DNA of 64,000 nucleotides from Luteococcus japonicus (GCF_003752415.1 NZ_RKHG01000001.1:2418001-2482000); one strand, 5' to 3'. Numbered from the stretch's first letter, positions 20,346 through 38,167 are shown. Notes: generated from the sequence alone by a model not told the origin. Numbers and translations: made by a program.

Positions 20346-20366
20346 CCTTCGGGGCGCTTTGCGCAG

Positions 20367-21634: not shown

Positions 21635-22600
21635 TCAGTTGGCCGCGATGAGGTCTTCAGCGACCGTCGTGCGTTCGTAGAGCACGTACCGACCGAAACG
21701 TGACGTCTGCAGCAGTCCTGCCGCAGCAAGGGCGCGGAGGTGCTGGTTCGCGGCCGGTGTGGTGACGCCCATGAACAGTGCCACAGCGGTGGATGACGCG
21801 GGTTCTTCGAGGCTGAGGAGGAGTTCAGTGCGGGTCCGGCCGAGGATGCCGACGAGGCCTGGCGCCGTGTCCGAATGGTTGTCACTGAGTCGACCTCGTC
21901 CGCGGGCCCGGTAGCTGAACACGGCGTCGGCTGCGCTCGAGTTGGGCAGGTTCATGCCCCACTTCACCAGCGTGGGGAGCATCGTGAAGCCGCTGCCTGC
22001 CGTGTCCCTCTCGTAGGGGTCCCAGGGCGCGTTGCCCAGTGGCATGAGGATGTCGTGGCCGTCGATGACGAAGTGTGGCTGGACCTCGGCCAGGGCGGCG
22101 GCTGGCCCCAGCGCAGCCAGGGTCTGGGCGCGGTAGGTGATGTCGGCGTCCAGCACCTGTCGAAAGCGTGGCCAGTAGCCCTCGAAGCACTCCCGCCAGA
22201 AGTCGTCCAGGATGGCCAGCAGGTTCTGTTTCACCTGCGCGTCCGTGCGACCGAGCACATCGGGGATGTCACGCCCCCAGACCTGCTCCACGTCGTGCCG
22301 GTAGCGGGCCGCCGGAATGTCGTCGAGGACGCGACGTTCCGATGCGAAGGTCGCGGCCCGCCGGCTCGCCGGACGCATGAACACGTCCACCAGGCTCTTC
22401 TCCCGGTTGAGCAGCGCCAGGATGCGCTCCTCGCCCACGACGGCCCTGCCAGCGGCCGTCTCCTCGTACCACTTCGCATGGAAGGGGTGCCGGTGGGGAT
22501 AGCGCACGATCATCGAGGCGAGGGCACACTCACTGACCGGGTTCGGCGCGAAACGAAGGTTCGCCAGACCGTTCCGGAAGACATGCGCGCGGAGTTCCAT
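21635..22600 (-). CDS. ArsR-type transcription regulator with DUF5937-like N-terminal domain
   Basis: 321 residues from the ATG at 22600. The C-terminal 80 residues form a winged helix (LVGILGRTRTELLLSLEEPA, TPAANQHLRALAAAGLLQTS, RFGRYVLYERT). The N-terminal ~230 residues (LRAHVFRNGLANLRFAPNPV, HGHD-like segment in FVIDGHDILMPLGNAP) correspond to the DUF5937 architecture common in actinomycete regulators, which may bind a ligand. It is divergent from the ABC exporter genes; a palindrome abuts its start codon. Confidence 0.78.
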   Translation of the reverse strand: MELRAHVFRNGLANLRFAPNPVSECALASMIVRYPHRHPFHAKWYEETAAGRAVVGEERILALLNREKSLVDVFMRPASRRAATFASERRVLDDIPAARYRHDVEQVWGRDIPDVLGRTDAQVKQNLLAILDDFWRECFEGYWPRFRQVLDADITYRAQTLAALGPAAALAEVQPHFVIDGHDILMPLGNAPWDPYERDTAGSGFTMLPTLVKWGMNLPNSSAADAVFSYRARGRGRLSDNHSDTAPGLVGILGRTRTELLLSLEEPASSTAVALFMGVTTPAANQHLRALAAAGLLQTSRFGRYVLYERTTVAEDLIAAN

Positions 22601-22616
22601 GTAGCAAAACGCTACA
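22600..22616. promoter_or_regulatory. Palindromic operator between regulator and ABC exporter
   Basis: TGTAGCAAAACGCTACA is a perfect 6-bp dyad (TGTAGC/GCTACA) separated by AAAAC. It sits exactly at the start of the regulator gene and 41 bp upstream of the exporter, which suits autorepression plus control of the divergent operon. Confidence 0.65.
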
Positions 22617-22656
22617 TCCATGGACGTGTCCACAGGAGCCCGGTCAGAGTGCTCGC

Positions 22657-23562
22657 ATGAGCACCGCCATCCGTCTCGACGCCCTCACCCGCACGTTCGG
22701 GAGGGGCCAGAACCAGGTGACCGCACTGGACAGGATCAGCCTCGAGGTTCCCGAAGGACAGCTCATTGCCGTCCTCGGCGAGAACGGTGCAGGCAAGACC
22801 ACGCTCACCAAGATCCTGTCCACCATGCTCTACCCGAGCAGCGGTACCGCCCAGGTCTTCGGCCATGACGTCGTGCAGGCCGCCCGGCAGGTCCGACAGG
22901 ACACCACCGTCATCTTCGGAGGCGACCGCGGCCTCTACGAGATGCTCACCGTCCGCGACAACCTGGCCTACTTCGGCGCCCTCCATGGTGTTCGCCGACG
23001 TGACCTGAGAAGCAGGATCCCCGCCCTGCTGGAACAAGTGGGGCTGGCCGACGCCGGTACCCGCAAGGTACAGACCTACTCCAAGGGCATGCGGCAGCGA
23101 CTCCACATCGCCGTGGGCCTGCTCACCCGGCCCAGGCTCCTGCTGCTCGACGAGCCCACTGTCGGCCTTGACCCCAACGAGTCTGAACGCCTGCGCGGCG
23201 TCATCGCCCAGATGCATGCCGACGGCACGACGGTGCTTTTGACCTCGCACAACCTCCTTGACGTGGAACGGCTGGCCGAGCGGGTCGTCATGGTCAGCCG
23301 CGGCGCGATCACGCACGACCTGGGCCTCGCCGAGTTCCGACGTCTGACCGGGCTCGACGCCGTCGTCACCGCGCAGCTCCGCACGCCGGACGGCGCCAGC
23401 GAGGTCGTCGTCCCAGTGGAGCGGTGGAGCGCAGACACTCTGGCCGCGCTCGCCAGACGGTTCCAGGACGAGGAACTCGTCGCGCTCGATGTGCGGCCTT
23501 CGTCGCTGGAGGATGCCTTCGCGCTCGCCTCCGGCCAGTCCGTCGGCGGGGACGCGCGATGA
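22657..23562 (+). CDS. ABC exporter ATP-binding protein (DrrA-like)
   Basis: 301 residues. Walker A is GENGAGKTT (near residue 43), Q-loop region DTTVIFGGDRG, signature YSKGMRQRL, Walker B LLLLDEPTVGLD and a switch His in LTSHNLLDVERLAE. The C-terminal ~80 residues resemble the regulatory extension of drug/ABC-2 exporters. It opens a three-gene operon with two permeases; the stop overlaps the next start (ATGA). Substrate unknown; DUF5937-regulated exporters often handle lipophilic drugs or peptides, which is only an analogy. Confidence 0.9.
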   Translation: MSTAIRLDALTRTFGRGQNQVTALDRISLEVPEGQLIAVLGENGAGKTTLTKILSTMLYPSSGTAQVFGHDVVQAARQVRQDTTVIFGGDRGLYEMLTVRDNLAYFGALHGVRRRDLRSRIPALLEQVGLADAGTRKVQTYSKGMRQRLHIAVGLLTRPRLLLLDEPTVGLDPNESERLRGVIAQMHADGTTVLLTSHNLLDVERLAERVVMVSRGAITHDLGLAEFRRLTGLDAVVTAQLRTPDGASEVVVPVERWSADTLAALARRFQDEELVALDVRPSSLEDAFALASGQSVGGDAR

Positions 23563-24317
23563 CCGGCTTCTGGGCGATGGCCGAGTCGCAGCTGCGGGTG
23601 GTCATGTCGAGACCGATGAACCTGGTCACCGGGGTGGTCAACCCGCTGATGTGGCTGGTGCTCGTGATGGTCCCTCGTCTCGACACCCTGTCACCGGACC
23701 AGGCAACACGGGCCTTCACGGGCGTGCTCCTCGCCTCGTTCTGGGGCTCCTCGCTGTGGTCCGGCGCCGGAATCATCCGTCGCGAACGACAGTCGGGAAC
23801 GCTCGCGGTCTCCTTCACCGGACGGCTCTCGCCGCTGAGCGTGCTCGTGGGCAAGACCTTGGGCGGCGTGGTCTACGACACCGGCCTCATCCTTGCGACC
23901 AACACCGTCTTCGTCCTCGCCATGGGTATCCAGCTCAGCGTCGCCTCGCCTGCGGCGCTTGCGGTCGGACTTGCCACCGTGGTGGCCGGTGGTGTCGCGT
24001 CCAGCCTGATGATCGGCGCCTGCCTGATGCTCACCAAGCACGCCTTCCAGCTCACCACCGCCGTCGGGGCGCCGGTGCTGCTGTTCGCCGGCACGATCAT
24101 CCCCTACGACCAACTGCCGCAGTGGATCGAGTGGATCGGCTCGGTCCTCAACATCTCGTGGCTTCAACGGTTCCTGGCCAGCACGGCCACCCATCCCGAC
24201 TGGACCTGTTGGTTGATCGCCGTCGCCATCTCCCTCGCGTATGCCGCACTGGGCGCCTGGGCCCTCGACGTGCTGCTGCGTCGCGCACGAAAGGACGCCA
24301 CCCTTGAACTCGGCTGA
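23559..24317 (+). CDS. ABC-2 type permease, first subunit
   Basis: 252 residues, start ATG overlapping the ATPase stop. Six hydrophobic segments can be counted, beginning with PMNLVTGVVNPLMWLVLVMV and ending with the LIAVAISLAYAALGAWALDV helix; the cytosolic loop after helix 2 has the ABC-2 'GIIRRERQSGTL' motif. Works as the membrane half of the exporter, probably as a heterodimer with the next gene product. Confidence 0.85.
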   Translation: MTGFWAMAESQLRVVMSRPMNLVTGVVNPLMWLVLVMVPRLDTLSPDQATRAFTGVLLASFWGSSLWSGAGIIRRERQSGTLAVSFTGRLSPLSVLVGKTLGGVVYDTGLILATNTVFVLAMGIQLSVASPAALAVGLATVVAGGVASSLMIGACLMLTKHAFQLTTAVGAPVLLFAGTIIPYDQLPQWIEWIGSVLNISWLQRFLASTATHPDWTCWLIAVAISLAYAALGAWALDVLLRRARKDATLELG

Positions 24318-25083
24318 GATCCTCACCGCGAACACCCAGCTGTGGCGCCGCGTCCAGTCCGACGAACTCCCGCCACGGTTCTGGCTCATGGGAGTCCTGG
24401 TGCCACTGCTCTTCCGCAGCCTCGTGTACGTCCTGCTCGGACGCATGATCGGCGGCGCAGACGGGCTGACCTGGACCTACGTCGGCGTGGTCTTCCTTGC
24501 CGTCACCGGCTCGACCATCTCCCACACCTCCGACATCCCGATCTACGACGTGTGGATGCGCACCTACCCGGCCGTGAGCCGGGCCTACGCACCCGTCGTG
24601 CTGCAGTACCTGTCCCGTAGCGTGGTCCTCATGGGAAGAGCCCTCGTCGAGGCAATAGTCGTCGGCGTCGCCATCGGGCTGGTCACCTCCAACACGTCCC
24701 TGATGCTCCCCGTCCTCGAACGAGCATGGATCCTGCTCCCCGCGATCGTCTCGTGCACCGTGTTCGGGCTCGCGATCATCGCCCCCGCCATCGGCAACGG
24801 CTCTCAGGACCTCATCCACAACACCGCAGGAACCCTGCTCGTCCTCACCTCCGGCGCACTCCTCACCCCAGGCCTGGCCCCATGGCTGCACACCCTCGGC
24901 CACGTGCTGCCCCTGACTCACGCCATCGCCGCCATGCGCGCCAGCCTCGACGGGCGCAGCCCGTGGCCCGGAACCGGCCGAGAACTCCTCGTCGCGGCTG
25001 GCTGGCTCTTGGTCGCGACCCTGGCCTACTGGCTCGTCGACCGTCGCACCAAGACAACCGGACGAGGTGCCATGCAGGGATAG
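24304..25083 (+). CDS. ABC-2 type permease, second subunit
   Basis: 259 residues if translation starts at TTG 24304, which overlaps the end of the previous permease by 14 bp; no ATG near the beginning fits better. Hydrophobic segments include FWLMGVLVPLLFRSLVYVLL, AILLPAIVSCTVFGLAIIAP-like helices and LLVAAGWLLVATLAYWLV. The loop YDVWMRTYPAVSRAY takes the place of the usual ABC-2 cytosolic loop. Same operon as the ATPase. Confidence 0.8.
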   Translation: MNSAEILTANTQLWRRVQSDELPPRFWLMGVLVPLLFRSLVYVLLGRMIGGADGLTWTYVGVVFLAVTGSTISHTSDIPIYDVWMRTYPAVSRAYAPVVLQYLSRSVVLMGRALVEAIVVGVAIGLVTSNTSLMLPVLERAWILLPAIVSCTVFGLAIIAPAIGNGSQDLIHNTAGTLLVLTSGALLTPGLAPWLHTLGHVLPLTHAIAAMRASLDGRSPWPGTGRELLVAAGWLLVATLAYWLVDRRTKTTGRGAMQG

Positions 25084-25155
25084 ACCTACGCCCCGCGCAG
25101 GTGTTGCCTGCTGGTCCCTGCTCAGAGGTTCGTTCCACTTCCCCTCGAGTGGGCG

Positions 25156-26067
25156 TCAGACTGTGACGGTGGCCTCTGTCGTGTGTTCACCGGAGCTGTC
25201 GGACCAGTGGACCAGACACTGTGCTTGGCTCTGAGAACCCATGACGAACAGGAGACTGAAGCGGGTCTCTCCATTGGGTGGCATTGTGGCGATGGTTCGC
25301 TCGCTGCTTCGATCATGTGCGTCGAACATCTGGCCGGGCGGAAGGTGGAATTCGTACCTGACGTTGTGGACCGGCCCCCCAGTCTGATTGGAGAGCACCA
25401 GGTGATGCCGGCGCCGAGTCTTGAGCCGCCCCTTGCTGTCGGTCTCTATATGTTCGGAACTCTCGATACGTGGCCAAACGCCCTTGGAGGGATCTTCAGC
25501 TGTCAAAGGGGCAATCGCCCGGTTCTCCTTCTCGATGTCCGCGGAACGTTGGGCCTGGCTTGTGAAGCGCGTGAGGAACGCATCCACATGGTTCTGCAAG
25601 GCAGCCATGTCAGCGAACGACAGCACCAGCGCTTGGGGGAAGACATCTGATTCGAAGTGCTTCTGCAGGCGGAGCGACTCAGCAGCTGCATCGCTTCCTT
25701 GGAGTGCGGGGCGAGGTGTCAAATCGCGCAGAATCCCCACGGGGCGTCCCCCGCCCGCCAAGCGCTCGATCTCTTCCCACGTTCCCGAGGCTGCATGCCC
25801 AGTGGGACTGCCGAGCTTGTCCCGGAAGATGGCCAGACACGCGTCGGCCTCATCGGTGAGTTGTTCATTGATGAGGGCTTGGGGACGGTCGCCGAATGCC
25901 GCCACTGCACTGTCAGTCCAAGCCATGGGGATGATGACGGCACTGAAAGCAGCACCGTGCTGGACGTTCCATCGGGCGATGGCCTCGCGAATCTTGGCGA
26001 GAGTCTCGTGCGGAACATCGCTGGGGCATGAGATCAGCAGCCTGAAAGCCATGCACTGGTAACTCAC
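25156..26067 (-). CDS. DUF4062-like domain protein with C-terminal beta domain
   Basis: 303 residues from GTG 26067 (ATG 26052 is possible). Residues 1-120 (FRLLISCPSDVPHETLAKIR, IIPMAWTDSAVAAFGDRPQA, IFRDKLGSPTGHAASGTWEE) have the pattern of DUF4062-type Rossmann-like domains, which occur as the N-terminal module of many NLR- and defence-associated proteins. A helical middle (residues 120-190) and a beta-rich end (HHLVLSNQTGGPVHNVRYEF) follow. The start overlaps the stop of a 31-codon ORF (GTGA). It lies downstream of the Tn7-like operon on the same strand and may be cargo. Confidence 0.6.
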   Translation of the reverse strand: MSYQCMAFRLLISCPSDVPHETLAKIREAIARWNVQHGAAFSAVIIPMAWTDSAVAAFGDRPQALINEQLTDEADACLAIFRDKLGSPTGHAASGTWEEIERLAGGGRPVGILRDLTPRPALQGSDAAAESLRLQKHFESDVFPQALVLSFADMAALQNHVDAFLTRFTSQAQRSADIEKENRAIAPLTAEDPSKGVWPRIESSEHIETDSKGRLKTRRRHHLVLSNQTGGPVHNVRYEFHLPPGQMFDAHDRSSERTIATMPPNGETRFSLLFVMGSQSQAQCLVHWSDSSGEHTTEATVTV

Positions 26068-26159
26068 GCCGCACCGCCCTGGTCGATGGTGGTGTCGGGG
26101 TGGTGCTGGGCGGTGGTCTGCGTCACAAACCGTCCGGTTGGTGCGCTTCCTGCGGCCAT
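26064..26159 (-). CDS. 31-residue leader ORF coupled to the DUF4062-like gene
   Basis: ATG at 26159 has a strong AGGAGG at ideal spacing, and the stop overlaps the GTG of the next gene. The peptide (MAAGSAPTGRFVTQTTAQHH...) has no recognisable domain. The good ribosome-binding site and the 4-bp overlap suggest that it is translated and couples translation to the downstream gene. Confidence 0.5.
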   Translation of the reverse strand: MAAGSAPTGRFVTQTTAQHHPDTTIDQGGAA

Positions 26160-26421
26160 GGTGGCCTCCTGTCTCCTCGCGGGCGCGGGGTCTGGTCGAA
26201 GCACTGCGTGGCGGGGTACCGTCGGTGGCCTACCTGGCCCGTAGAGCCAGCCCCGGATCCCGTCACCCCGGCGGGTTGCCGGGGTTTGGCGCTTCTGCCG
26301 AACACCATAGATGAGCCCTCTGACAGTTTTTCGGGCCATTCGCTAGGGGTAGTGGTCGAGCTGTGCAGTGGCGTCTACATGTTGTAGTCATTGGGCGCGG
26401 GTGCTTCTCCGGTTCGGGACA

Positions 26422-26736
26422 CTACTGGGGCGGCGGGACGGGGACGGGTACGCCGTGCGTGGCGGCGAGTGAGGTGTAGCGACGGCAGGGCTGGAGTGCG
26501 GGGCATGCGAGGCATAGTTCGGCGAGTCGGTCGAGATGTTGCGCGCGTTGTCGGCGGCCGGCCAGTGAGCTGGGCAGGCGTTCCCAGTCCTGGAAGAGGC
26601 CGGGGTCGGTGGTGCAGGGGATGAGGTGCCCGTCGTCCTGGTGGTCTTGGATGGCGTCGGCGAGGGAGTGCCAGGCCTGGGTGACGACCACGGCGATGTC
26701 GCGTTTGCGGATGCGGGCTTGGCTATTGGAGGTCAT
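26422..26736 (-). CDS. WhiB-like iron-sulphur protein inside the Tn7-like operon
   Basis: 104 residues. Cysteines at 41, 75, 78 and 84 give the WhiB spacing C...C-x2-C-x5-C, and the context IPCTTDPGLFQDW ... LAELCLACPALQPCRRYTSL matches the family ('C-x-x-x-D-P-x-x-F' and 'C-x-x-C-P-x-x-x-x-C'). The G-(V/I)-W-G-G turn of classical Wbl proteins is reduced to HGVPVPV. Wbl proteins hold a [4Fe-4S] cluster and bind region 4 of the principal sigma factor. The start overlaps the TniQ2 stop by ATGA, so it is made with the transposition proteins. It may be the element's transcription regulator or a redox-sensing subunit. Confidence 0.78.
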   Translation of the reverse strand: MTSNSQARIRKRDIAVVVTQAWHSLADAIQDHQDDGHLIPCTTDPGLFQDWERLPSSLAGRRQRAQHLDRLAELCLACPALQPCRRYTSLAATHGVPVPVPPPQ

Positions 26737-28115
26737 GGCCGGCTTCCGGGGCTGGTGTTGGCGAGTTGTCGGGCGAGGGTTGCGAGGCCGTGGGTGAAGG
26801 TGTCGTGGTGTGTGCGCATGGCGGCGGAGCAGAGCCGCGCGGTGCGGATGCCGCTGTCGCCGGGCAGGCCGAGGGCCTCGGCTGCTTGGGCCCAGGTGGT
26901 GACGTCGGGTAGGTGTCGGGCGAGGCAGAGGGCGGCGTAGGCGTTGCGGGTGCGGTTGGTGACGCCGGGTAGTGCGGGCAGGTGTCGGGCGGCGAGGGTT
27001 TCGGGGATGATCCACGGGATCTGCTCGGCGCTCAGCTCGGGCAGTGCGAGGGCGGTGATACGTCGGCCGGGGCGCCGGCGTACGAGGGCGGCCGCGTTGA
27101 CCAGGGCGGTGACGTGGTGGTTGGTGGGCAGCCGGTCGCGGGTCCAGGTGGTGAGGGCTTCGGTGCTGCTGGGGATGCGCAGGATCCATGCCTGGAGGGC
27201 GTGGGCGGCGCTGTCGGGGTCGGGTCTGGTGAGGATGCTGTGGGCTTCGGCCAGCGCATGGCCACGGATCCATGGGCTGGCAGGTGGGGTGATGCCCCAG
27301 CGGGGTCCGCGCACGTCGGTGCGGCGGGTGGCTTCGTCGAGCAGCGCGGTCTGCCAGGGCTGGGTGCGGTCGGGGTTGTGGGTGGTGATGTGGCAGATGA
27401 GGCTCGCGAGGGCGCGGTGTTCGGACAGCCAGGTGGCGCCTTGGGCGGGTTGTCCGAGCAGGCGGGGTCGGTGACCGGCCAGGACGTGGTCGAGGGCGTG
27501 TTGGTAGGCGCTGGTCTCGGTTGTCATGGCGGGGGTGGTGATGGTGGCGAGGTTGTGCAGGCAGTGTTGCCCGCGCACGTCTTGGGGGTTCTGGCAGGCG
27601 GTGCTGGCGCCGTGGGGGCGCAGCGGGCTGTGGCGGGAGTCGCGTAGCGGGCGCTGGCAGCGCGGGCAGGTGGCGGTGAGTGTGCGGTGGTGGCGGGTGC
27701 AGCCGATGCTGGCGTAGAGCATCCAGCTGGTTTGCCAGGTGCCGTGCGCGGCGAGGCAGTCGGGGCAGGCCTGGGTGCCGTGGCCCATGACCCAGCCGGT
27801 GGCGGCGATGGCCCGGTAAGAGGCTGCGGGGCGGGCGGGTTCGAGGCGGGAGAAGTCTGCGGGGGCGAGCGGTCCGTAGCCGGCCTGGGTGGCGGCGTGC
27901 AGCGCGCCGACGTCCTGGCCGGACAGGTCGCTGATGGCTCGGAGGGCTGTCGGGCTGGGTGCGAGGGTGAGGTAGCGCAGTTCTTCGCGGCTCAGGGTGG
28001 ATTGCAGCACGTTGAGCAGGTCGAAGGGTTCGAGGTGGTTGGCCTCGGCGAGGTGCTCGAGGTAGCAGTCGAGGGCTTGGCCCGGCTGCAGGGGCGGCCG
28101 GGTGGGGAGCCTCAT
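26733..28115 (-). CDS. Second TniQ-family target-selection protein
   Basis: 460 residues from the ATG overlapping the TniQ1 stop. TniQ features: leucine-rich N-terminal helices (FDLLNVLQSTLSREELRYLT), then a zinc-binding region ACPDCLAAHGTWQTSWMLYA / GCTRHHRTLTATCPRCQRPL with CxxC, CxxH and CxxC pairs, and a helical, HTH-like C-terminus (ALGLPGDSGIRTARLCSAAM). In Tn7-like elements TniQ/TnsD proteins recruit TnsC to the chosen target. Together with the first TniQ this gives two potential target selectors. Confidence 0.75.
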   Translation of the reverse strand: MRLPTRPPLQPGQALDCYLEHLAEANHLEPFDLLNVLQSTLSREELRYLTLAPSPTALRAISDLSGQDVGALHAATQAGYGPLAPADFSRLEPARPAASYRAIAATGWVMGHGTQACPDCLAAHGTWQTSWMLYASIGCTRHHRTLTATCPRCQRPLRDSRHSPLRPHGASTACQNPQDVRGQHCLHNLATITTPAMTTETSAYQHALDHVLAGHRPRLLGQPAQGATWLSEHRALASLICHITTHNPDRTQPWQTALLDEATRRTDVRGPRWGITPPASPWIRGHALAEAHSILTRPDPDSAAHALQAWILRIPSSTEALTTWTRDRLPTNHHVTALVNAAALVRRRPGRRITALALPELSAEQIPWIIPETLAARHLPALPGVTNRTRNAYAALCLARHLPDVTTWAQAAEALGLPGDSGIRTARLCSAAMRTHHDTFTHGLATLARQLANTSPGSRP

Positions 28116-29632
28116 GCGAGAAGGCCGTCGGCAGTGACGTGGGCTGCGGCTCGGGTGATTTCGAGGTGGGGGTTGAGGAGGTCTTTGGCGGCGTCGGCCA
28201 TGTCGAGCAAGGTGGTGGCGTCGAGGCTGTAATGGAAGTCCCAGATGGCGCGGGTGGGGAACCAGCCGGCGGGTTTGGCCCATGGGGGTGCGCTGCGCAG
28301 GTCGTCGCCGGTGAGGTAGCACCAGAACCAGCCGTGGCTGAGTGCGGGGTCGGTGCGCGTGGGCAGGAAGTGGTGCCGCTGGACGGGTAGGGCTTTGTTG
28401 GCGCGCAGCAGGTGGCGGCGGTGGGCGAGGTCGGGGTTGCTGGCGAGCAGGGGCAGGGCGTCGCGGATAGCGGCGTCGGTGGCGGGGGTGATCTGGCGTC
28501 GGGCGAGGTCACGCAGGAGCAGGCTGGGGGCGGTGTCGGGTTCGCCGAAGTGGCAGTGCGCGTCGCACAGCAGGCCGGGGCGTCCTGTGTCTTCGGTGTG
28601 TAGCAGCATGTCGACGGCCAGGGCGAGGTCGTGACGCAGCGGCCACTGGTCGGGCGGCGGCATGAATCCGTCCCCGGCAAGGCGCAGCAGGCCGGGGATC
28701 TGCCCGGCTGTGACGGTGGCCTGGACGTCGCGCGACAGGTGCCAGAACAGTCGTTCTTGCTGGCTGGTGCGGGGGCTGACGGGTGGGGTGTAGATGCCGC
28801 TGCCCGGGTAGTGGGCTTCGGGGCTGGCTCCTGCTTCCCATGCGGTGCGGTACTGGCGTCGGCGGATGGGGCGTTGGCCGCGGCTGGGCGGCGTGGTGGT
28901 GTGCGTGGCGAGGCGTCGGGTGCCGTCGATCTGGAGCCAGCGCTCGTAGCTGGGACTGCGGTCGCTGAGGGTGGCGATGAGGACCTCGGCGACCGCGGCC
29001 GGGTCTGCCGGGGGCCGATCTGCCCAGGTGCGGCAGGCGGTGTAGTCGTCGAGCAGCCCCGTCGCGGGGCGTGGCGGCCAGCGGGCGTCGATGGTGGCGG
29101 CCACCAGGCAACACATGCGGTGCATGCGCCGGAACCGGTACATGACACTGCTGCTGGATCTGGAGCGTTCGAGGCGCCGCAGCAGTGAGTAGCTGAGGTT
29201 GAGCAGTTCGGGCGGTGCTTCCACGGGGTCGCCGGCTGGCTGGCCGGGGTGGGTGAGGAGGACTTCGCAGTCGAGGCAGCAGGGGCACAGCCCCGTCTCC
29301 CAGGCCTTCTGCCAGGTGCGTCGTCGGGGTTGGCAGACGGGGCAGGTCCACGGGGTGTTGACCAGCCAGCGTTGGCGGCGTCGGGTGCCGACGCCAACGG
29401 CCGGGTAGTCGCTCCAGGTCATGGCGCGCAGGGCTTCGGGGCCAGTTCCGGACAGGCGTGACAGTGCTTCCAGCTGGGCTGGGGTGATGGGTGTTGTCGG
29501 GGACGACGGCAGCCATGCCGCGAGGGGGAATCCGGCGAGGTCTTGTTGGCGGGTGGCCCAGGAGCCGAAGGCTTCCCCCGGTAGGGGCACCGCCCGCGCC
29601 GGCAAGACCTGCTGTGCTGGTCGGGTGGTCAT
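28112..29632 (-). CDS. First TniQ-family target-selection protein
   Basis: 506 residues. The N-terminus PLPGEAFGSWATRQQDLAGF is the TniQ start pattern ('PxxxESxxSWxxRxA'), followed by LSRLSGTGPEALRAMTW, the zinc region TPWTCPVCQPRRRTWQKAWE / GLCPCCLDCEVLLTHPG, and a long helical C-terminal half with many Arg and Trp residues. Role in known systems: bridges TnsC to DNA or to a target-recognition partner. It overlaps TnsC upstream and TniQ2 downstream by four bases each. Confidence 0.82.
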   Translation of the reverse strand: MTTRPAQQVLPARAVPLPGEAFGSWATRQQDLAGFPLAAWLPSSPTTPITPAQLEALSRLSGTGPEALRAMTWSDYPAVGVGTRRRQRWLVNTPWTCPVCQPRRRTWQKAWETGLCPCCLDCEVLLTHPGQPAGDPVEAPPELLNLSYSLLRRLERSRSSSSVMYRFRRMHRMCCLVAATIDARWPPRPATGLLDDYTACRTWADRPPADPAAVAEVLIATLSDRSPSYERWLQIDGTRRLATHTTTPPSRGQRPIRRRQYRTAWEAGASPEAHYPGSGIYTPPVSPRTSQQERLFWHLSRDVQATVTAGQIPGLLRLAGDGFMPPPDQWPLRHDLALAVDMLLHTEDTGRPGLLCDAHCHFGEPDTAPSLLLRDLARRQITPATDAAIRDALPLLASNPDLAHRRHLLRANKALPVQRHHFLPTRTDPALSHGWFWCYLTGDDLRSAPPWAKPAGWFPTRAIWDFHYSLDATTLLDMADAAKDLLNPHLEITRAAAHVTADGLLA

Positions 29633-30639
29633 GTTCCGATGGTCATGTCGGCTTCGCGTTGCATGGCCCGGTCGGACAGGGTGATGGCGTTGAGGTGGTC
29701 GGTGGTCACTTCGTCCAGGTGGCGCGTGGCGACGTCGAGGATGACGTCAGCGAGCAGTTGGGTGACGTCGCCGGGGAATCCTTGGGTGCGGTCCCAGATG
29801 GTCTTGGCATGGGTCGCGGAGAAGGTGCCGGGCGTGATCCAGGGCACCACCGGCAACAGGATCTGCTCGGCGCCGTGCAGGAACCGCTGCCAGGCCTTCG
29901 CGCTGGAGGCGTTCTCGATGCGGAACGGGTCGAGGTGGAAGGTGCGCAGTCGTGCCTGGATCTGCGGGTCGGTGGTGATGTCGCTCTCGCGCAGGTCTGC
30001 GCCGACGAGCACGAGGGTGCCGTTGCGTTCACCCAGCACGGTGTTGAGGAATTTCAGGTAGTCAAGGGTCTGCCGGGAGGCTTTCTCGCTGCGTTTGATG
30101 AGGTGGACGTCGTCGAGGATGATCAGGCGCACCTTGTGGCGCTGCAGGGCAGAGTCGAGCCGAGCCGTGGTGGCGCGGGTGATGCCCTCGCCCGGGTAGC
30201 CGAGGAAGGTGAGCAGCTGGGCGTTGAGTTCCTTGATGCCGGCGGCACTGGGCACCGTGATGTAGACCACGGGGGTCAGGTCGGCGGTCACGCCCGGTTC
30301 CGGGGACCATTCGGGGCGGCTGTGGCCGGCGCGCCCACCGAGTAGCTGCAGACGGCGTTGGTAGCCCCACTGCAAGGCAAAGGTGCTCTTCCCGGCGCCG
30401 TAGGGGGCGCCGATCGCGATGATCGTCTGCGAGCCGGGCGGCCGGCGCAGGTTGCGCTGCATGATGCGCTCCATGGCCACGCCGGTCTGGGTCGCGAGCT
30501 CGCGGGGTAGCACCAGGCTGTCGAGCGCGTAGGACAGCATGTCCAGGTAGCTGTCGGGGTACGGGCCGTCGGCGGTCGGGGGCGGCGGCAAGGTGGTGCG
30601 CTGGTCGATCACGCGCTGGTACCACAACGTTGTGTCCAC
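29629..30639 (-). CDS. TnsC-like AAA+ ATPase
   Basis: 336 residues. Walker A GAPYGAGKST (near residue 78), Walker B VRLIILDDVHLI, sensor-like NGTLVLVGADL and a C-terminal lid with IWDRTQGFPGDVTQLLADVI. TnsC proteins form ATP-dependent filaments on target DNA, receive the signal from TniQ and activate TnsAB. It begins three bases after the TnsB stop. Confidence 0.88.
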   Translation of the reverse strand: MDTTLWYQRVIDQRTTLPPPPTADGPYPDSYLDMLSYALDSLVLPRELATQTGVAMERIMQRNLRRPPGSQTIIAIGAPYGAGKSTFALQWGYQRRLQLLGGRAGHSRPEWSPEPGVTADLTPVVYITVPSAAGIKELNAQLLTFLGYPGEGITRATTARLDSALQRHKVRLIILDDVHLIKRSEKASRQTLDYLKFLNTVLGERNGTLVLVGADLRESDITTDPQIQARLRTFHLDPFRIENASSAKAWQRFLHGAEQILLPVVPWITPGTFSATHAKTIWDRTQGFPGDVTQLLADVILDVATRHLDEVTTDHLNAITLSDRAMQREADMTIGT

Positions 30640-30642
30640 GGG

Positions 30643-32760
30643 TCATTCTCCTGGGTTGGGTTCGTCGAGGGATGGCCACGGCCCGGTGCCTGCCCACCAC
30701 GTGGTCTGTGCCGGTGCAGTGGGGGCGGGCAGGTCGTGGCTGGTGACGTCTGCGCGGGGCTCGAGAGCCATGCGTTGGTGGGCGGCCATGACCTCGTCGT
30801 GGTCGCGTTGGGCTTGTTCCCAGCGCAGGCGGGTTGCGGCCATGTCGGTGGCCCACTCGTCGGCGGTCTTGGGGGTGGTGAGTTGGCCCAGGGCGTCGAT
30901 GATCTGGTGGGTGGCGGTGCTGCGGCGCAGTTTTCGGCCGTCGCGTTCACGCAGCAGTTCCAGTGCCCTGTCGCGCATGCGGTTGGTCATGGGTGCGTTG
31001 AGCAGGTGGCGACCACGCCAGGGAATCTCGTGGATGCGGTCGGTGTCGGGGTCGCGGAACCACAGCCTGGACACGTCGCGGGGGTCGGTGTGGAAGGGCA
31101 CCTTGCGCGAATGGGGCTGGAACCTGCCGGTCCTCATCACACGCGGCTCGTCGAGGACGGCCGCATCGTAGGTGAGGTTGCGATACTCCACACCGGAATG
31201 CCTCGGGGTGAGCCAGACAATCGGCAGGAATTGGTAGATCAGGTCCGGGTGCTGAGGGACGTCGATACGGCCCGTGGCGGCGAGCTGGATGTCGAAGAAC
31301 TCGATCGGCGTCCACCGGGCGTCTCGCTGCTGCGGAATCAGCAACCCGTCGTGCGGGGCGCGGTGGTAGTCGAGGGCGATGAACTTGTGCAGGTGGGTCT
31401 CGAGTTCGCTGGCGGTTAATAGCACCTGTTTGGCGACGAACCGGCCGCGCTCCTTCACATTGCGCCCCTTGTAGCCGGGTAGTTCCTGCAGGGCGCGCTG
31501 GAGGGTCTCGTGCCAGCGTTCCACGAAGGAGTTGTCGGTGGAAGCGCCGACCCGTGAGGGCAGGTAGTCGATGGCGAAGTCCCGCAACAGTGCCTGGAAG
31601 TGGGCCGAGACGAAGATGGCGCCGTGGTCGGTGCGCACGGCCGTCGGTTCGACGCTGGGGATGTGGTGTTCGCCTTGAAGGTCGGGCCGCATGTTCACAT
31701 ACGAGTGTCCCGTCGAGGCCCGGGTCATCTGCAGCGACTGCGGGAGACCGGCCCAGGCCCAGTCCGTGACCTTGGTGCCCGTCACGTGCAGGGAGAACGG
31801 CCGCATCGTGTCGTAGAGCGCCAGACCGGCCTCGACCGATGACGCGGAGCGGGGAACGACCCGGCAGGCCAGGACCACCCGGGTGGAGACGCTCAGCACG
31901 GTGATGATCTCGACGCTGACCGGTTTGGCCAGCACCGGGTCGTAGACCAGGTTGTCGGCGCGGGTGACGTCCATGCAGACGTGACTGGGATGGATGGCCG
32001 GGAAACTGGTCCGCCCCGCACGGGCACGGACCTTGGTGGCCTTGTGGCCACGCGGATTGTTGCCCAAGGCCTTGTATCGCAGCGAGATGTACTCCTTGGC
32101 GAGGCGCTCGGGAACAGCGTCACGTGGAAGGCCGCGCTGTCGCAGACCCAACCACGCGCGGCGTTCGAGCTCCGTGCGATTCACCGTCGACACGTCTCCA
32201 TCGAAGGGAGTGAGGACATCATCGACAGCGGCCTTGAAGTCATCGGGGAGTCGTTCGAAGTTGCCGACAGGACGAGCTCGTCGGCCGTCCACCAAACCGC
32301 GGAGGCCTTCTCGTTCCCAAGCGCGGAGCCACGTGAAGATGGTTCGCTGCGTGACTTTCTGCCCGTGCCGCTCCAGCTGCTTTGCCATCAGCATCCGCTG
32401 GGTCTTCTCGTGCGCGCCATAACCCGGCCCGAAGGGTTCGAATGGCTCGCCGGGCTCAGCGAGACTGGCGTGGCCCGACCTGAAGCCGGTCAGGATCTCC
32501 AGAACCACCCGCATGCGCTCCAGCGCCTCGGTGCGGGCGGCCTCTGGGAGCCCCTCCCACCACGGGCTCAACGACACCTCTTGGGCTTGGAGCTCACCGT
32601 CCGTGAACGGCGACACGACCAAGCTGCCCCAGTCGATGAAGGCATCCTGCCCATGAGGCAGCACGATGGTCACGCCGTCTCGCTCGATACGCTCCACGAT
32701 GCCGATACCGCGGTTGGTGAGGACCCGCTGTCCCGGGTCGAGCAAGACTCGTGCCGTCAT
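30643..32760 (-). CDS. TnsB-like DDE transposase
   Basis: 705 residues. The helix-turn-helix part (QKVTQRTIFTWLRAWEREG, residues 134-152) precedes the rve catalytic core with Asp264 (HVCMDVTRADN), Asp378 (AVRTDHGAIF) and Glu414 (DNSFVERWHETL), giving the D-(35)-E spacing. The C-terminal Mu-type domain contains PIVWLTPRHSGVEYRNLTYD, and the last ~100 residues are a helical tail that may contact TnsC. Role: binds the transposon ends and performs 3'-end cleavage and strand transfer. All catalytic residues are present. Confidence 0.92.
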   Translation of the reverse strand: MTARVLLDPGQRVLTNRGIGIVERIERDGVTIVLPHGQDAFIDWGSLVVSPFTDGELQAQEVSLSPWWEGLPEAARTEALERMRVVLEILTGFRSGHASLAEPGEPFEPFGPGYGAHEKTQRMLMAKQLERHGQKVTQRTIFTWLRAWEREGLRGLVDGRRARPVGNFERLPDDFKAAVDDVLTPFDGDVSTVNRTELERRAWLGLRQRGLPRDAVPERLAKEYISLRYKALGNNPRGHKATKVRARAGRTSFPAIHPSHVCMDVTRADNLVYDPVLAKPVSVEIITVLSVSTRVVLACRVVPRSASSVEAGLALYDTMRPFSLHVTGTKVTDWAWAGLPQSLQMTRASTGHSYVNMRPDLQGEHHIPSVEPTAVRTDHGAIFVSAHFQALLRDFAIDYLPSRVGASTDNSFVERWHETLQRALQELPGYKGRNVKERGRFVAKQVLLTASELETHLHKFIALDYHRAPHDGLLIPQQRDARWTPIEFFDIQLAATGRIDVPQHPDLIYQFLPIVWLTPRHSGVEYRNLTYDAAVLDEPRVMRTGRFQPHSRKVPFHTDPRDVSRLWFRDPDTDRIHEIPWRGRHLLNAPMTNRMRDRALELLRERDGRKLRRSTATHQIIDALGQLTTPKTADEWATDMAATRLRWEQAQRDHDEVMAAHQRMALEPRADVTSHDLPAPTAPAQTTWWAGTGPWPSLDEPNPGE

Positions 32761-33494
32761 GAGCCGCAGGCCCTGCGCACGCGGCTGTCCTGGTCGAGGG
32801 GCTCGTCGAGATCGCAGTCCAGCGCGCCGGTCCAGATGAGGTGCCAGGCGACACGCAAGCGCAGATCAGCCTCGGAGCCGGTGAACAGCCGTCTGAGCGG
32901 GACGGGTTCGCTGTCGAGCTCCGCAAGCATCTGATCGGCGATCGATCGGGTCCCTGCGGGTAGGCGCCGCGAATGTGACAGCCACTGCAGATTCAGACGC
33001 CGCCGCTCGTGCTCGTCGGAGAAGACCTCATATCCCCAACCCACGCTGCGACAAGCCTCCGCCGTCTTCTCCGCGACCGCACGAAAGCGGGAATCCTGTC
33101 GGTGCTCGGGTCTCACGTCCCAGACCGTGACGTCACCGTGGGCGGTGACGGTGAGCAGGTCAGGAGTGTGGTGACTGCCGTCAGGCCAGCGCAGCTTGAG
33201 GGGCTGCGACACCAACCACCTGATCGCCGGATCGCAATCCACCGCGCGGAGCAGGTCCGCTTCGAGTCCCGACTCGACGGGGACCAGGTCACCCGTCGTG
33301 GTGCAGAAGGGACTCGCCGGTAGGTGCTTCGACAGCGCCCTCGCCACGAAGTCACGGCACGGCTGCATCTCCTGCAACGGTGGTGCTCCATCAACGCACC
33401 ACCGCCACTGGCGTAGGGCGCCCCGGGTCTTGATCACCCATTGCGGGCACGACGGATCTGGCCCCATGGCGGGGCCACCGATAGAATCGGTCAC
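32757..33494 (-). CDS. TnsA-like endonuclease with altered catalytic motif
   Basis: 245 residues from GTG with AAGGAA upstream. The PD-(D/E)xK fold is read as VESGLEADLLRAVDCDPAIR (Glu), WPDGSHHTPDLLTVTA (PD with Asp) and VTVWDVRPEHR. In TnsA the last motif is (E/D)-x-K; here the Lys position is Arg. A C-terminal helical region (RLFTGSEADLRLRVAWHLIW) resembles the TnsA winged part that meets TnsB and TnsC. Role: 5'-strand nicking at the transposon ends, allowing cut-and-paste. If the Arg disables it, the element would move by cointegrates. Confidence 0.8.
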   Translation of the reverse strand: MTDSIGGPAMGPDPSCPQWVIKTRGALRQWRWCVDGAPPLQEMQPCRDFVARALSKHLPASPFCTTTGDLVPVESGLEADLLRAVDCDPAIRWLVSQPLKLRWPDGSHHTPDLLTVTAHGDVTVWDVRPEHRQDSRFRAVAEKTAEACRSVGWGYEVFSDEHERRRLNLQWLSHSRRLPAGTRSIADQMLAELDSEPVPLRRLFTGSEADLRLRVAWHLIWTGALDCDLDEPLDQDSRVRRACGS

Positions 33495-33533
33495 AGCGGT
33501 TCCTTATGAGCTTTGAGACAGGTTCGAACCGCG

Positions 33534-33575
33534 TGATGGGGTGTCCTCGGGCCAACGGGGGCACCCCATTTTTTG
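33534..33575 (+). terminator. Intrinsic terminator upstream of the tnsA-like gene
   Basis: ATGGGGTG and CACCCCAT pair around a GC-rich loop, and the second arm is followed by TTTTTTG. As a terminator it works on the plus strand, away from the transposition operon, and would stop transcripts running toward 34 kb. Confidence 0.6.
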
Positions 33576-33735
33576 TCCACGACGGCTGTCGACAGTATCC
33601 ACCGTTCCTCAGCTGTCCGGCAAGTACTCGGGAACTTTTTGATCGCCAGCGACCGTTGGATGATGGCTCGCCTCTCCGTTCCGTGCTTGGCTTGGCGGGC
33701 GTCTCGGCGTGTAGGACCGCGCGGGTCGATCAGGG

Positions 33736-33795
33736 CAAATTGTGATCACTTTGAAGTGATCTCTGCGGGTGTGGCGACTGCTGGTGCACAATTTG
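33736..33795. promoter_or_regulatory. Nested inverted repeats between the Tn7-like operon and the zinc-cluster gene
   Basis: Outer arms CAAATTGTG (33736-33744) and CACAATTTG (33787-33795) enclose an inner perfect palindrome, GATCACTTTGAAGTGATC (33744-33761). They lie in the 453-bp gap 33495-33947, which has no gene. Possible roles: a transposase binding site at the transposon end, or an operator for the gene at 33948. Confidence 0.45.
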
Positions 33796-33947
33796 TCCCG
33801 GGCGCAGGGTTATCCGGCCCAGCGTTCCATCTGCAGGCCTCACCAGCCTGCCAAGCATGAGAGTGGCGCCCGCTTGGGGCCGCACGCTCTGTTGCCTACA
33901 GTGCCAACTGCGGAGCCGGCCCGCACATCCAGAACTGGAGACTTGGT

Positions 33948-34337
33948 ATGCCCCAAACCCTCATCAGCGTGCTCAACAGGCGTGAGACGCCCAGCGTTCA
34001 AGATGTCATCGAGGCGGAGGACGAGGCGTTCATCAAGGTTCCGGGCAGCTTCACCTGCTTGAACCCCGAATGCCAGCAGATCTGCTCATGGAAGCCGGGG
34101 CGAGGCCGCCCCCAAGTGTTCTGTTCACGCCGATGCAAGAAGCGTTACGACGCAGTTCAAGCCCGGCTGATGCAAGAAGTGGAGCGGATCGAGGCGGTGC
34201 TGGAGCGCTCGCCGGCCTCGACTACCGCTGAACAGAAGGCCATTCGATCCATGTTGGCCCAGCGCCGCTACGCACTCCGCCACTACGGTATCGACTACCA
34301 GGAGTTTCAAGGCGAAGCCAACCAAGGCACCGCCTGA
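33948..34337 (+). CDS. Small zinc-cluster protein next to the Gabija-like pair
   Basis: 129 residues. A four-cysteine cluster, TCLNPECQQICSWKPGRGRP followed by QVFCSRRCKKRYDAVQARL, resembles the zinc-binding tail of CGNR-type or CHC2-like proteins; a helical C-terminus follows. It is transcribed toward the helicase gene and overlaps its 3' end by 31 bp. No exact family is recognised. It may be part of the defence module or a transcription factor for it. Confidence 0.6.
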   Translation: MPQTLISVLNRRETPSVQDVIEAEDEAFIKVPGSFTCLNPECQQICSWKPGRGRPQVFCSRRCKKRYDAVQARLMQEVERIEAVLERSPASTTAEQKAIRSMLAQRRYALRHYGIDYQEFQGEANQGTA

Positions 34338-35665
34338 CCTTCCTTCACGACGATGGTGCAGGTCTGCTTGGCCCGCGTGAGCGCGACGTAGATCTCCTCT
34401 GGCGAATCCAGACGTTCGGGTTGGACGATGATGACGTGGTCGAACTCTAAACCCTTCATTCTCAAGACGCTGCCCACCACGGGACCGTTGCCGGGGTTGT
34501 TGCCCATGTGCCGGAGCTGGTTGTCCACGCGGGCCAGAGCAGCGAGCAGCGGGGTCTGCTCCGTCTGGGCGATGCACAGCGCTCGTTGGGCCCGGGATAA
34601 GAGTTGAGGGCGGTAGAGATGGGTGTCGGGGTGATCGAGAACGATGTCGATGAGTGCCAGTGCAGCCTCGGGTGATGCCTGCTCTACCAGTTGGTTTGCA
34701 AGGGCTGCGAGGGGGGCGTTGGACCGGCTGGGCTTGTTGGTCGCCGCGTTTGCGTGGCAGGAGGTGAAGCCTGGGACCTTCGTTGTGTTCGATGCGCACT
34801 GCTTGATCAGCTGCAGGACGGCCAGTGTGCGCCTGCCGGACTCCCACGCATCGGTGAAGTCAACGAGTTCTTTGGGCTGACCCACCTCCAGGACTGTCAG
34901 GCGGTTCCAAGGGTGGGTCTTGGCCAGGGTGCTGGGCAGGTTCGGGTTCTTGGCGTCTCCGGCGATAACGGCCCACGAACCGGGGCCACGCATGAGGCGG
35001 GACAAGTAGGCGCCGTGCTGCTGGGAGACCCGGTGAACCCGGGTCGACGGGTCGTCAAGCTCGACGGGTGATCCTTCGAGTAGGGCCGTGCGAGTTCGGG
35101 AAATCCAAGCGCCTCGGTCAGGTTGGTCGTGCCAGCGCCACGGATAGGTCAGCTCCTCCTGATCGACCCAAGCAGAGGTCTTCGCTTCCCAAGTGGCGGC
35201 TTGCGTGGGGTCCAGCAAGTCGAACAGAGACTGCAGCGGATCCCCCAGGGCCAGCGTGGGAAGGAGCGCTGCAAGTGCGTGGAGCAAAGCCACCTGCTTC
35301 TTCGAGCAGTCCTGGAACTCGTCCACGACCACTTGGTCATACGAAGCGGCCAATGCCGTCGCCACTGCAGGACTGTGGAGCACCGCGGTGGCGCCTTCTT
35401 CGAAGACTCTCCAGTCGGTGGTCTCTGTTGGAACCCCACTCAGCGTGGGGAAGCACAAACACAATCGGCGCGCGAAAGCATCGATGGTCTCCAGCTTCAC
35501 GCCATGCGGCACTCCTTGGCGTCGGCGGGCGTTGTTGACTGCAACGTGAGTATGGGTCAGGACGAGAACGCGCAGTCCACTGCGGATGATCTCGGAGACG
35601 CGGTGGGTCTTCCCATAGCCGGCAGGTGCGACCACGACACCAGCGCGGGGGAGGCTCCCCGTCAT
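34307..35665 (-). CDS. gajB: GajB-like UvrD-type helicase (Gabija defence)
   Basis: 452 residues from the ATG overlapping the gajA stop (ATGA). Superfamily 1 motifs in order: Walker A VVVAPAGYGKTHRV, VVVDEFQDCSKKQ (motif II), LALGDPLQSLFDL (motif III), RMKGLEFDHVIIVQPE (motif V) and EEIYVALTRAKQTCTIV (motif VI). The known partner of GajA in Gabija is a UvrD-like helicase of about 490 residues that detects DNA ends or replication intermediates. The order GajA-GajB and coupling agree. Other OLD/helicase pairings exist, so the name rests on architecture. Confidence 0.78.
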   Translation of the reverse strand: MTGSLPRAGVVVAPAGYGKTHRVSEIIRSGLRVLVLTHTHVAVNNARRRQGVPHGVKLETIDAFARRLCLCFPTLSGVPTETTDWRVFEEGATAVLHSPAVATALAASYDQVVVDEFQDCSKKQVALLHALAALLPTLALGDPLQSLFDLLDPTQAATWEAKTSAWVDQEELTYPWRWHDQPDRGAWISRTRTALLEGSPVELDDPSTRVHRVSQQHGAYLSRLMRGPGSWAVIAGDAKNPNLPSTLAKTHPWNRLTVLEVGQPKELVDFTDAWESGRRTLAVLQLIKQCASNTTKVPGFTSCHANAATNKPSRSNAPLAALANQLVEQASPEAALALIDIVLDHPDTHLYRPQLLSRAQRALCIAQTEQTPLLAALARVDNQLRHMGNNPGNGPVVGSVLRMKGLEFDHVIIVQPERLDSPEEIYVALTRAKQTCTIVVKEGQAVPWLASP

Positions 35666-37401
35666 CCCGCCATCCATTGCTGAAGGCCCAGAACGGTCTG
35701 CTGCATCGTCGAGCCCTCCCGCAGGCTCGGGTACGCGCATGTCAGCAGAAGTTCCCCGGAGGCAATGTTCTTGAACCACTTGTCCTTGTTGGCTGTGGCT
35801 CCGAGGGCCTTCCGTAGGGAGGAGGTCGGTTCCGCGGTCCACTGGGCGGTGGTCAAGCAGTCGATCTCGGCTGTGGTGACATTTCGACTGAGGAGCCTCT
35901 GGCGAAGCGCTGGCCCTGTCGTCGCCCCCAACTCCGATGCGAGCCGGATGAGTTCACTCATTCCGGTCGGCGAGACATCGGCGAACAGCTGATGTTCGGT
36001 TGCGTTGCCATCCTCCGCTGGGAACTTGACGACGTCGGGATTCAGCGAGGCGAGGTTGTCGGGAACTTCGTCCATGTCGAAGACGCAGGCCACGGGGAAG
36101 CCCAGGCCAGCGAAGTCGTTTGCCCGCCTCACCAAGTTGCTTCTGCCGCCGGCATCAACGGGTTCGGCGATGACGTACATGGGTGTGCGGGACTCCTCCA
36201 TCAACGCGATCACAGCACGGACAAGCCCCACCTCAGTCGCGCCCTCGCACACCACCACTCGTGGTGCCAAGAGCCCCTCGGGCGCCGACCGGACGGTGCC
36301 CTGGTGCTCGGTCGTCAGCCTTCGGAACTCGACCTGGCCTGAACTGTCTTGACGTGTGAGGACGATGGCGTGTGACGGGAGCTCGCGGATAGCTCGGGGT
36401 GAGTGCGTGGTAGCGAGCACTTGGCCGGCATGACCGTCCCGGATCTCACGCTGCAGGGAATGGATGAGTGCTTGAACTCGCTGGGGGGCAAGCCCGTGCT
36501 CAAGGTCGTCAAGAAGTAGCAGCGCCGGGGATTCAGAGACCCCCAGCTGCGCCGCGATCGCGACCGTCCGTTGTGTCCCCAGCCCCGCCCGCGAGACGGG
36601 GATGCCGTTGTCCCCATGGAGCGTGATGTTGCCCAAACCCCGAGCAAGGCCATCGAGGTCTTCGGCTGCCTCGAGGTGCACACGTTGAGGGATCGCTCGC
36701 AGCCGATGCGCAGCAGCTGTAATGGTTGAAGTGGGTGCCGCGAGAGCCTCACGCAACGCCGTGCTCGAGGCGGTGCGAGCTCCTCGCGCGGCTTCACGCA
36801 CAACGCTGAGGGCCCCCTCTGTGTCCTGGGTCTGGCGTGTCAGGGACGAGCCCCGGCCCCATCGCAGGTCTTGCGGCAAGCCTCTTCCGACGCGTTGCAT
36901 GCCAAGGGCGGCGCGATCGGTCGTCCGGATCGCTCGCGGCTCCTGCCCGTTCTTGACTACTTCCCAGACGGGCTCCAGATCCCGTCCGATGGTGAGACGG
37001 ATGTTCAGCGCGGTCAGGTCGCGAGGGTCTCGTGACGGGTCGGGCAGGAGCTCCCCGTCGAGGAAACCCAAGAGATATCCCAAGAACTTGCTGTCGGTCC
37101 TCAGGGCCAGCGGTGGGTTGGCCACCCACACATCGATGACGATCTCTTGCTCGAGCCGCCCCATGTGAAAGTCGTTGTCGGTGACTGAAAGGGCGTACAG
37201 CGGCCACAAGGCGTACTCGATCGCGGTCAACATGGTCGACTTGCCCGAGTCTCCTGGACCAATGAGGAGGTTGAAGCCAGGTTCTAGCTGGAGCTCAGCC
37301 GTCGCGTGAGATCGGAAGTTGGTGGTGCGGACGCGATGCACCCACGGAGCCGGGACTGGCAGGGGCAGGCTGGCTGGACCCTTGGCAAGGACCGACGTCA
37401 T
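35662..37401 (-). CDS. gajA: GajA-like OLD-family ATPase-TOPRIM nuclease (Gabija defence)
   Basis: 579 residues from the ATG at 37401, preceded by AGGAGG at 8 bases; this equals the size of characterised GajA (about 578). N-terminal ABC-type ATPase: FNLLIGPGDSGKSTMLTAIE (Walker A), signature region SRAGLGTQRTVAIAAQL, Walker B ALLLLDDLEHGLAPQRV, switch His in ATTHSPRAI. C-terminal TOPRIM: VVVCEGATEVGLVRAV (Glu) and VACVFDMDEVPDN (DxD). GajA nicks DNA when nucleotides are depleted during phage replication. Coupled to the helicase downstream. Confidence 0.82.
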   Translation of the reverse strand: MTSVLAKGPASLPLPVPAPWVHRVRTTNFRSHATAELQLEPGFNLLIGPGDSGKSTMLTAIEYALWPLYALSVTDNDFHMGRLEQEIVIDVWVANPPLALRTDSKFLGYLLGFLDGELLPDPSRDPRDLTALNIRLTIGRDLEPVWEVVKNGQEPRAIRTTDRAALGMQRVGRGLPQDLRWGRGSSLTRQTQDTEGALSVVREAARGARTASSTALREALAAPTSTITAAAHRLRAIPQRVHLEAAEDLDGLARGLGNITLHGDNGIPVSRAGLGTQRTVAIAAQLGVSESPALLLLDDLEHGLAPQRVQALIHSLQREIRDGHAGQVLATTHSPRAIRELPSHAIVLTRQDSSGQVEFRRLTTEHQGTVRSAPEGLLAPRVVVCEGATEVGLVRAVIALMEESRTPMYVIAEPVDAGGRSNLVRRANDFAGLGFPVACVFDMDEVPDNLASLNPDVVKFPAEDGNATEHQLFADVSPTGMSELIRLASELGATTGPALRQRLLSRNVTTAEIDCLTTAQWTAEPTSSLRKALGATANKDKWFKNIASGELLLTCAYPSLREGSTMQQTVLGLQQWMAG

Positions 37402-37452
37402 CACGAACCTCCTAGCATCGAGGGAACGAGGATAACTGACCAACCGGTCAGA

Positions 37453-37690: not shown

Positions 37691-37713
37691 AGGACGGGCC
37701 GAGGCAAGGGATC

Positions 37714-38076: not shown

Positions 38077-38167
38077 TGCTGACCTCCTATGTCGGGATGT
38101 CTCGATCATGCACTGAAAACCCACCGCCGTACTCCGTCTCGAGAGGGAACAGAGGCCGTCCGCCTCT

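Follow-up and report, generated by a model that had tools for sequence, protein, structure and literature searches.

The window, by which we mean the whole stretch of 64,000 nucleotides of Luteococcus japonicus DNA that was analysed, carries on its minus strand, from 33494 to 26422, a six-gene transposition operon encoding TnsA, TnsB, TnsC, two TniQ proteins (TniQ1 and TniQ2) and a small four-cysteine protein. The genes overlap by 4 bp at the TnsA/TnsB, TnsC/TniQ1, TniQ1/TniQ2 and TniQ2/four-cysteine junctions, and a 3-bp gap separates TnsB from TnsC. All genes and junctions are as the original prediction, which had proposed a coupled operon of six genes, described them.

32757 to 33494, minus strand: TnsA-like endonuclease, 245 aa, GTG start (NCBIfam NF033179, "TnsA_like_Actin")
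30643 to 32760, minus strand: TnsB-like DDE transposase, 705 aa (identity to sister-element TnsB)
29629 to 30639, minus strand: TnsC-like AAA+ ATPase, 336 aa, GTG start (Pfam TniB, Walker motifs)
28112 to 29632, minus strand: TniQ1, 506 aa (Pfam TniQ, just under the cut-off)
26733 to 28115, minus strand: TniQ2, 460 aa (Pfam TniQ)
26422 to 26736, minus strand: WhiB-like (Wbl-like) protein, 104 aa, C-x33-C-x2-C-x5-C (Cys pattern, hhalign)

TnsA matches NF033179 at 138.6 bits (cut-off 110; E=2e-40), and TnsC matches Pfam TniB at 52.7 bits (cut-off 22.4). TnsB, which is weak by Pfam and NCBIfam alone, has 46-50% identity to the TnsB proteins of sister elements. The motifs linked to activity that are expected in TnsB and TnsC are present in both: D264, D378 and E414 of TnsB are invariant with respect to the sister elements, and the Walker A (APYGAGKS) and Walker B (LIILDDVH) motifs of TnsC are intact. 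Two TniQ proteins had been claimed, and two are found, TniQ2 with 49.2 bits against Pfam TniQ (cut-off 27) and TniQ1 with 22.5 bits (E=2e-4) under the same cut-off. TniQ2, at 460 aa, is shorter at its end than the forms of its relatives, which have 537-577 aa.

The operon is only part of a larger element, 20176-37514, whose true ends, tandem array and dnaB site were not in the original prediction. The right, tnsA-proximal end is at 37514 and the left, distal end at 20176; the ends are inverted, TGTCGAG...CTCGACA, of the TGT...ACA type. An exact 5-bp duplication, ACAGC, is found on both flanks, and it is because the 20176/37514 pair is flanked by these identical five bases that the element with the operon is taken to be 17,339 bp long. 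The element, its cargo and its neighbors are as follows.

20176 to 37514, minus strand: whole Tn7-like element, 17,339 bp (terminal inverted TGTCGAGATGCAGCG and 5-bp duplication)
37515 to 37519: target-site duplication, right copy, ACAGC on the plus strand
20171 to 20175: target-site duplication, left copy, ACAGC on the plus strand
35662 to 37443, minus strand: cargo, GajA of Gabija (PADLOC GajA, E=2.8e-128)
34307 to 35842, minus strand: cargo, GajB of Gabija (PADLOC GajB, E=5.8e-100)
33948 to 34337, plus strand: cargo or accessory, 129 aa, zinc-finger-like motif rich in Cys (ORF only)
25156 to 26067, minus strand: cargo, 303-aa protein, N-terminus like PADLOC PDC-S60 (E=5.9e-11, residues 8-102)
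22657 to 25083, plus strand: cargo, ABC exporter, an ATPase and two membrane proteins (Pfam ABC_tran, ABC2_membrane)
21635 to 22633, minus strand: cargo, DUF5937/HTH_20 regulator-like protein (Pfam)
20367 to 21404, minus strand: cargo, AbiD/Abi_2 abortive-infection protein (PADLOC AbiD, E=2.7e-57; Pfam Abi_2, E=2.4e-49)
37528 to 38292, minus strand: second element, 765 bp, same end type, between the 17.3-kb element and dnaB (end motifs on both sides)
7630 to 20175, minus strand: third, older element, about 12.5 kb (left end intact at 7630; right end truncated at about 20175)
38301 to 40934, minus strand: dnaB, the attachment gene, coding for an 877-aa replicative helicase with an intein; 3′ end towards the array

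The 129-aa protein has no match in Pfam or PADLOC. With TnsA, TnsB, TnsC, TniQ, inverted TGT...ACA ends and a 5-bp duplication, the element is Tn7-like (TnsABC-TniQ), and it is complete and probably functional. The claim that it lacks Cas also holds: the 17,339 bp contain no cas-like gene and no CRISPR-like spaced direct repeat and give no Rfam match, by which a guide RNA or a CAST remnant is ruled out.

At least three elements of one end type form a tandem array behind dnaB, at window positions 7630-38301. The 12-base core of the end motif has only five copies in the 3.45-Mb genome, all of them inside the window (at 7630, 20176, 37503, 37528 and 38281); the core was taken from the motif TGTCGAGATGCAGCGAAG, which stands directly past dnaB in sister loci. 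The 765-bp element has a single ORF, of 157 aa, and its flanks, GCTTT and CCTTT, form an imperfect duplication, while no tns genes were found in the third element. The left ends of all three elements have in common sub-terminal ACTTTGAAC/GTTCAAAGT repeats, which are probably TnsB sites.

The first right end of the array is 8 bp past the dnaB stop codon (38301). A profile search of contigs with the TnsB alignment gave 28 loci, and a contig search with TniQ2 alone as the query gave none. In 18 loci, that of the window among them, the right end follows the dnaB stop at a distance of 2-16 bp, and without exception the tnsA side faces dnaB; these include loci in Micropruina, Ornithinimicrobium, Phycicoccus, Cellulomonas, Flexivirga, Brevibacterium, Gordonia and Mycobacterium. 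The 18 represent fewer independent events, since some are near-copies (three from Gordonia). Insertion is thus specific in both site and orientation, and adjoins a conserved gene. Exact duplications flank two further elements: CAACC, of 5 bp, flanks Micropruina element 1, and CTCGT flanks a complete 23.7-kb element on CALMKG010000242.1, 11 bp past dnaB. The end motif is absent after dnaB in a genome of the same genus (G088) and in nearly all of 30 relatives. As a side observation, the dnaB of the window (38301-40934) has an intein-like insertion at about residues 394-818, and similar insertions occur in several of the sister dnaB genes at the attachment site.

The known Tn7-like sites that have been tabulated are glmS, yhiN, comM, parE and tRNA genes, and dnaB is not among them (PMC11406308). 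Our search of the literature, which covered open-licence papers only, found no report of dnaB as a Tn7-like or TnsD attachment site; given that coverage, "undescribed" is to be read as provisional. On these terms, both the dnaB attachment site and the coupling of a WhiB-like gene appear to be undescribed, and the dnaB site is the most solid new point of the analysis.

Not all copies are at dnaB. One is on plasmid pGKT2, one is in a locus with a TrwC relaxase gene, and one is in Gordonia spumicola, where TnsB, TnsC and TniQ2 give the matches also obtained for the dnaB-sited elements of three other Gordonia. The presence of copies at dnaB and elsewhere fits a life style of two routes, like that of Tn7 (PMC11406308). 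At L027 7475-10105, where the DNA carries a TrwC relaxase gene, an element end adjoins a tniQ2-like gene, with tnsABC missing; this arrangement looks like a deletion derivative on a plasmid.

Two TniQ proteins are ordinary in Tn7-like elements, given that 1,048 tandem tniQ/tnsD loci have been reported (PMC10293859). In this family the two are not equally conserved. TniQ2 is found in nearly every sister element, with 29-40% identity, whereas TniQ1, with 24-29% identity to the tniQ genes of sister elements, is far less conserved, and TniQ2 would therefore be the likelier selector of dnaB. Comparison of the elements of Cellulomonas humilata and C. terrae bears on the same protein: TnsB is 99.7%, TnsC 95%, TniQ1 91% and Wbl 96% identical, but TniQ2 just 60%, and the DNA identity of 94% stops about 400 bp inside tniQ2 (L092 15062-16708, L095 11417-13063). 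The divergence of TniQ2 in this pair suggests that a target-selector module may have been exchanged.

What, then, is the four-cysteine gene doing in the operon? Among 35 sampled elements, a Wbl-like gene is present in six of the 17 of one clade (clade I) and in none of the 18 of its sister clade. It follows TniQ2 in the window, in Micropruina element 1 and in Ornithinimicrobium cavernae, and stands between TniQ1 and TniQ2 in C. humilata, C. terrae and G155; in five of the six it is joined to its neighbors by 4-bp overlaps. The gene therefore recurs in five elements besides that of the window, so the refuting condition named in the original prediction, its absence from every other copy, does not hold, and the proposal that it is a coupled part is borne out as far as recurrence and translational coupling go. 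As a constituent, however, it is an optional accessory (6/35 elements, one clade only), and the TniQ/Wbl pair is conserved in part of clade I and nowhere in the sister clade. The 11 clade-I elements without the gene include Micropruina element 2, a tandem neighbor on the same chromosome, and transposition accordingly does not need it. On the element tree the gene needs several gains or losses, and its presence is not significantly clustered (130 of 500 shuffles were as low).

Chance adjacency was considered and rejected. With five Pfam Whib genes per 3.45-Mb genome, as in the genome of the window, and a tniQ region of about 3 kb, a naive binomial calculation gives six of 35 a probability of 1e-8; kinship makes this figure too small, yet the tree still needs several gains or losses. 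A search from the Wbl side recovered members of the subfamily (E 1e-13 to 1e-21) that for the most part lie apart from tns genes and often adjoin FtsK-type translocase genes of conjugative-like elements, by which the idea of a subfamily specific to Tn7-like elements was also rejected. Since the subfamily stands beside FtsK-type genes too, the Wbl-like gene is a recruited accessory and not a core part: a mobile-element accessory that repeatedly entered, or was lost from, the tns operon.

Several other arrangements were seen in passing. L173-L181 (genus g4 of the same family) are recombined pieces, present in multiple copies, that carry a Wbl-like gene from this subfamily; in L173 the gene is directly beside a TniQ-like fragment. 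In two genomes of genus g31 (L170 6528-7121 and L182 6800-7393), a protein of the same subfamily is encoded between proB- and proA-like genes, on the chromosome. In Micropruina element 1 (L070 16222-17262) the reading frame runs on for about 230 residues beyond the Wbl-like domain, and the gene is possibly a fusion. Several elements encode a different small protein in their tniQ part, likewise coupled and marked by a W-x-x-W/VWD-like motif (e.g., IWGLWDCEELLSVHLT), at the sort of location that the Wbl-like gene occupies in others:

L020 11951-12256; L024 7276-7581; L027 9866-10105; L074 14752-14961; L023 2104-2484 (minus strand): W-x-x-W/VWD-like small protein

The kinship of the small protein to WhiB has to be weighed with some care, given that it might be an unrelated zinc-ribbon, or a decaying reading frame, with the Cys pattern arising by chance. 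The window copy has no match to Pfam Whib (PF02467) at E<=1, nor to a profile of the relatives built without it, again at E<=1, and it is missing the G[VI]WGG turn (GxAAG/GVWGG) after the cysteines, in whose place the relatives have SG/TG-[ILF]-A-[AS]. The relatives themselves score 20.0-21.5 bits against Pfam Whib, under the cut-off of 23.6, with E=3.6e-4 to 1e-3 in three of them. The AlphaFold2 models were taken as evidence for neither side: that of the window protein (mean pLDDT 57.7), whose Foldseek/VIA-align matches include no WhiB chain, and that of its best relative (mean pLDDT 52.6) are both of low confidence. A tblastn search of plasmids with the window protein found nothing. On the other hand, the four cysteines are invariant across the six elements, and the place in the operon is the same as in Micropruina and Ornithinimicrobium. 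By hhalign the window copy is tied to the five in-operon relatives with a probability of 86% and a pairwise E=5e-6, and its CTTDPGLF resembles the CxxxDPExFF start of classical Wbl proteins, the host's own included. Against the PDB, the profile of all six copies matches WhiB chains only (best E=0.034), and the six best matches of the profile of the five relatives are all WhiB (best E=0.027). We consider an unrelated protein or a decaying frame very unlikely. Lacking the G[VI]WGG turn and with its first two cysteines far apart (C-x33-C), the window copy is best described as a degenerate WhiB member; phage Wbl forms are nearer to the classical Wbl proteins. The two Cellulomonas genes differ by 17 synonymous and four non-synonymous codon changes (dN/dS about 0.07), and judged from these counts the pair is under purifying selection.

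The Wbl-like protein could belong to the target-selection or transpososome complex, where it would bind TnsC, one of the TniQ proteins or the target (RNA polymerase being one conceivable intermediary) and act directly in the choice of site. The gene always lies within the tniQ part, between or after the two tniQ genes, and partner selectors, TnsF and Cas proteins among them, are known to act together with TniQ proteins (PMC10293859). However, the gene is present in a minority of elements, those without it use the same dnaB site, and its subfamily is also found away from any TniQ, so we hold such a role to be unlikely. Alternatively, the protein could act on the host or on rival elements, interfering with host WhiB or excluding other elements in the manner of phage TM4 WhiB, for which down-regulation of the host's whiB2 and a link to superinfection exclusion are reported (PMC8612146). 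That close relatives adjoin FtsK-type translocase genes in conjugative-like elements, and that the element carries other defense genes, would agree with this; but the gene is coupled to the tniQ genes and not placed in the cargo, and the protein is without the classical turn for sigma-factor contact. Action on the host or on rivals is, in our judgment, also a doubtful reading, of low probability.

The reading that we favor, and regard as reasonably probable, is that of an actinobacterial Tn7-like transposon that attaches at the 3′ end of dnaB by TniQ-directed insertion, in which the WhiB-like protein is an optional accessory whose likeliest function is regulatory. A TniQ protein, more likely TniQ2, would bind the 3′ end of the dnaB coding sequence, which is conserved, and recruit TnsA/TnsB by way of TnsC, so that insertion would occur just past the stop, as with TnsD at glmS. 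The other TniQ, TniQ1, would serve a second route to other targets, which would explain the copies on plasmids and elsewhere. The WhiB-like protein would have been recruited from the mobile-element WhiB-like subfamily, with translational coupling fixing it in the operon. Most likely it would regulate the tns operon or transposition, by analogy with CvkR/Arc of type V-K elements, transposon-borne regulators that provide a precedent (PMC9938897). Whether a [4Fe-4S] form of the protein, coupled to TniQ, gates transposition or the choice between dnaB and mobile DNA by redox or sigma-factor state is another matter: we think this improbable, and redox sensing, Fe-S binding and sigma-factor control are speculation. 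The evidence for the new kind of transposition control that had been proposed goes no further than recurrent coupling.

Comparison with known systems places the element more closely. With Tn7 of E. coli (TnsD/glmS) it has in common TnsA, TnsB, TnsC, a TniQ-family selector, a 5-bp duplication, a single orientation and insertion just past the stop of a conserved gene; a second route, as in Tn7, would also be shared by the family. The attachment gene, however, is dnaB and not glmS, which sets the element apart from Tn7 proper, and it has no TnsE that we could find, two TniQ proteins and an optional WhiB-like gene. The host phylum, the TnsABC core and defense cargo including Gabija are those of the Actinobacteria-dominated Tn7-like clade of Benler et al. 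2021, to which we liken the element by description; there the clade is termed uncharacterised, and the words "dnaB" and "WhiB" do not occur in the paper (PMC8649781). The dual TniQ-TnsD loci of Faure et al. 2023, such as Tn7017 (parE) and Tn6022/TnsF (comM), likewise have two TniQ/TnsD proteins, gene-specific attachment sites and modular selectors, again with no mention of dnaB or WhiB (PMC10293859). CvkR/Arc are, like the WhiB-like protein, small regulators on a Tn7-like element, but they are of the MerR or ribbon-helix-helix type, near cas12k, not Fe-S, and uncoupled from tniQ (PMC9938897). The Wbl proteins of phage TM4 and of actinobacterial integrative conjugative elements are four-Cys WhiB-like proteins as well, but unlike the window copy they lie outside any transposition operon (PMC8612146, PMC3218068).

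The site just past the stop of dnaB, an essential gene, is apparently undescribed and is easily testable for Tn7-like defense islands in Mycobacterium, Gordonia, Cellulomonas, Micropruina and others. It would let the actinobacterial Tn7-like elements, termed uncharacterised in the literature, be assayed directly, and dnaB-sited elements might perhaps serve as tools for safe insertion in high-GC bacteria. The WhiB-like gene inside the operon, if functional, would be the first case of an actinobacterial WhiB-type regulator tied to transposition.
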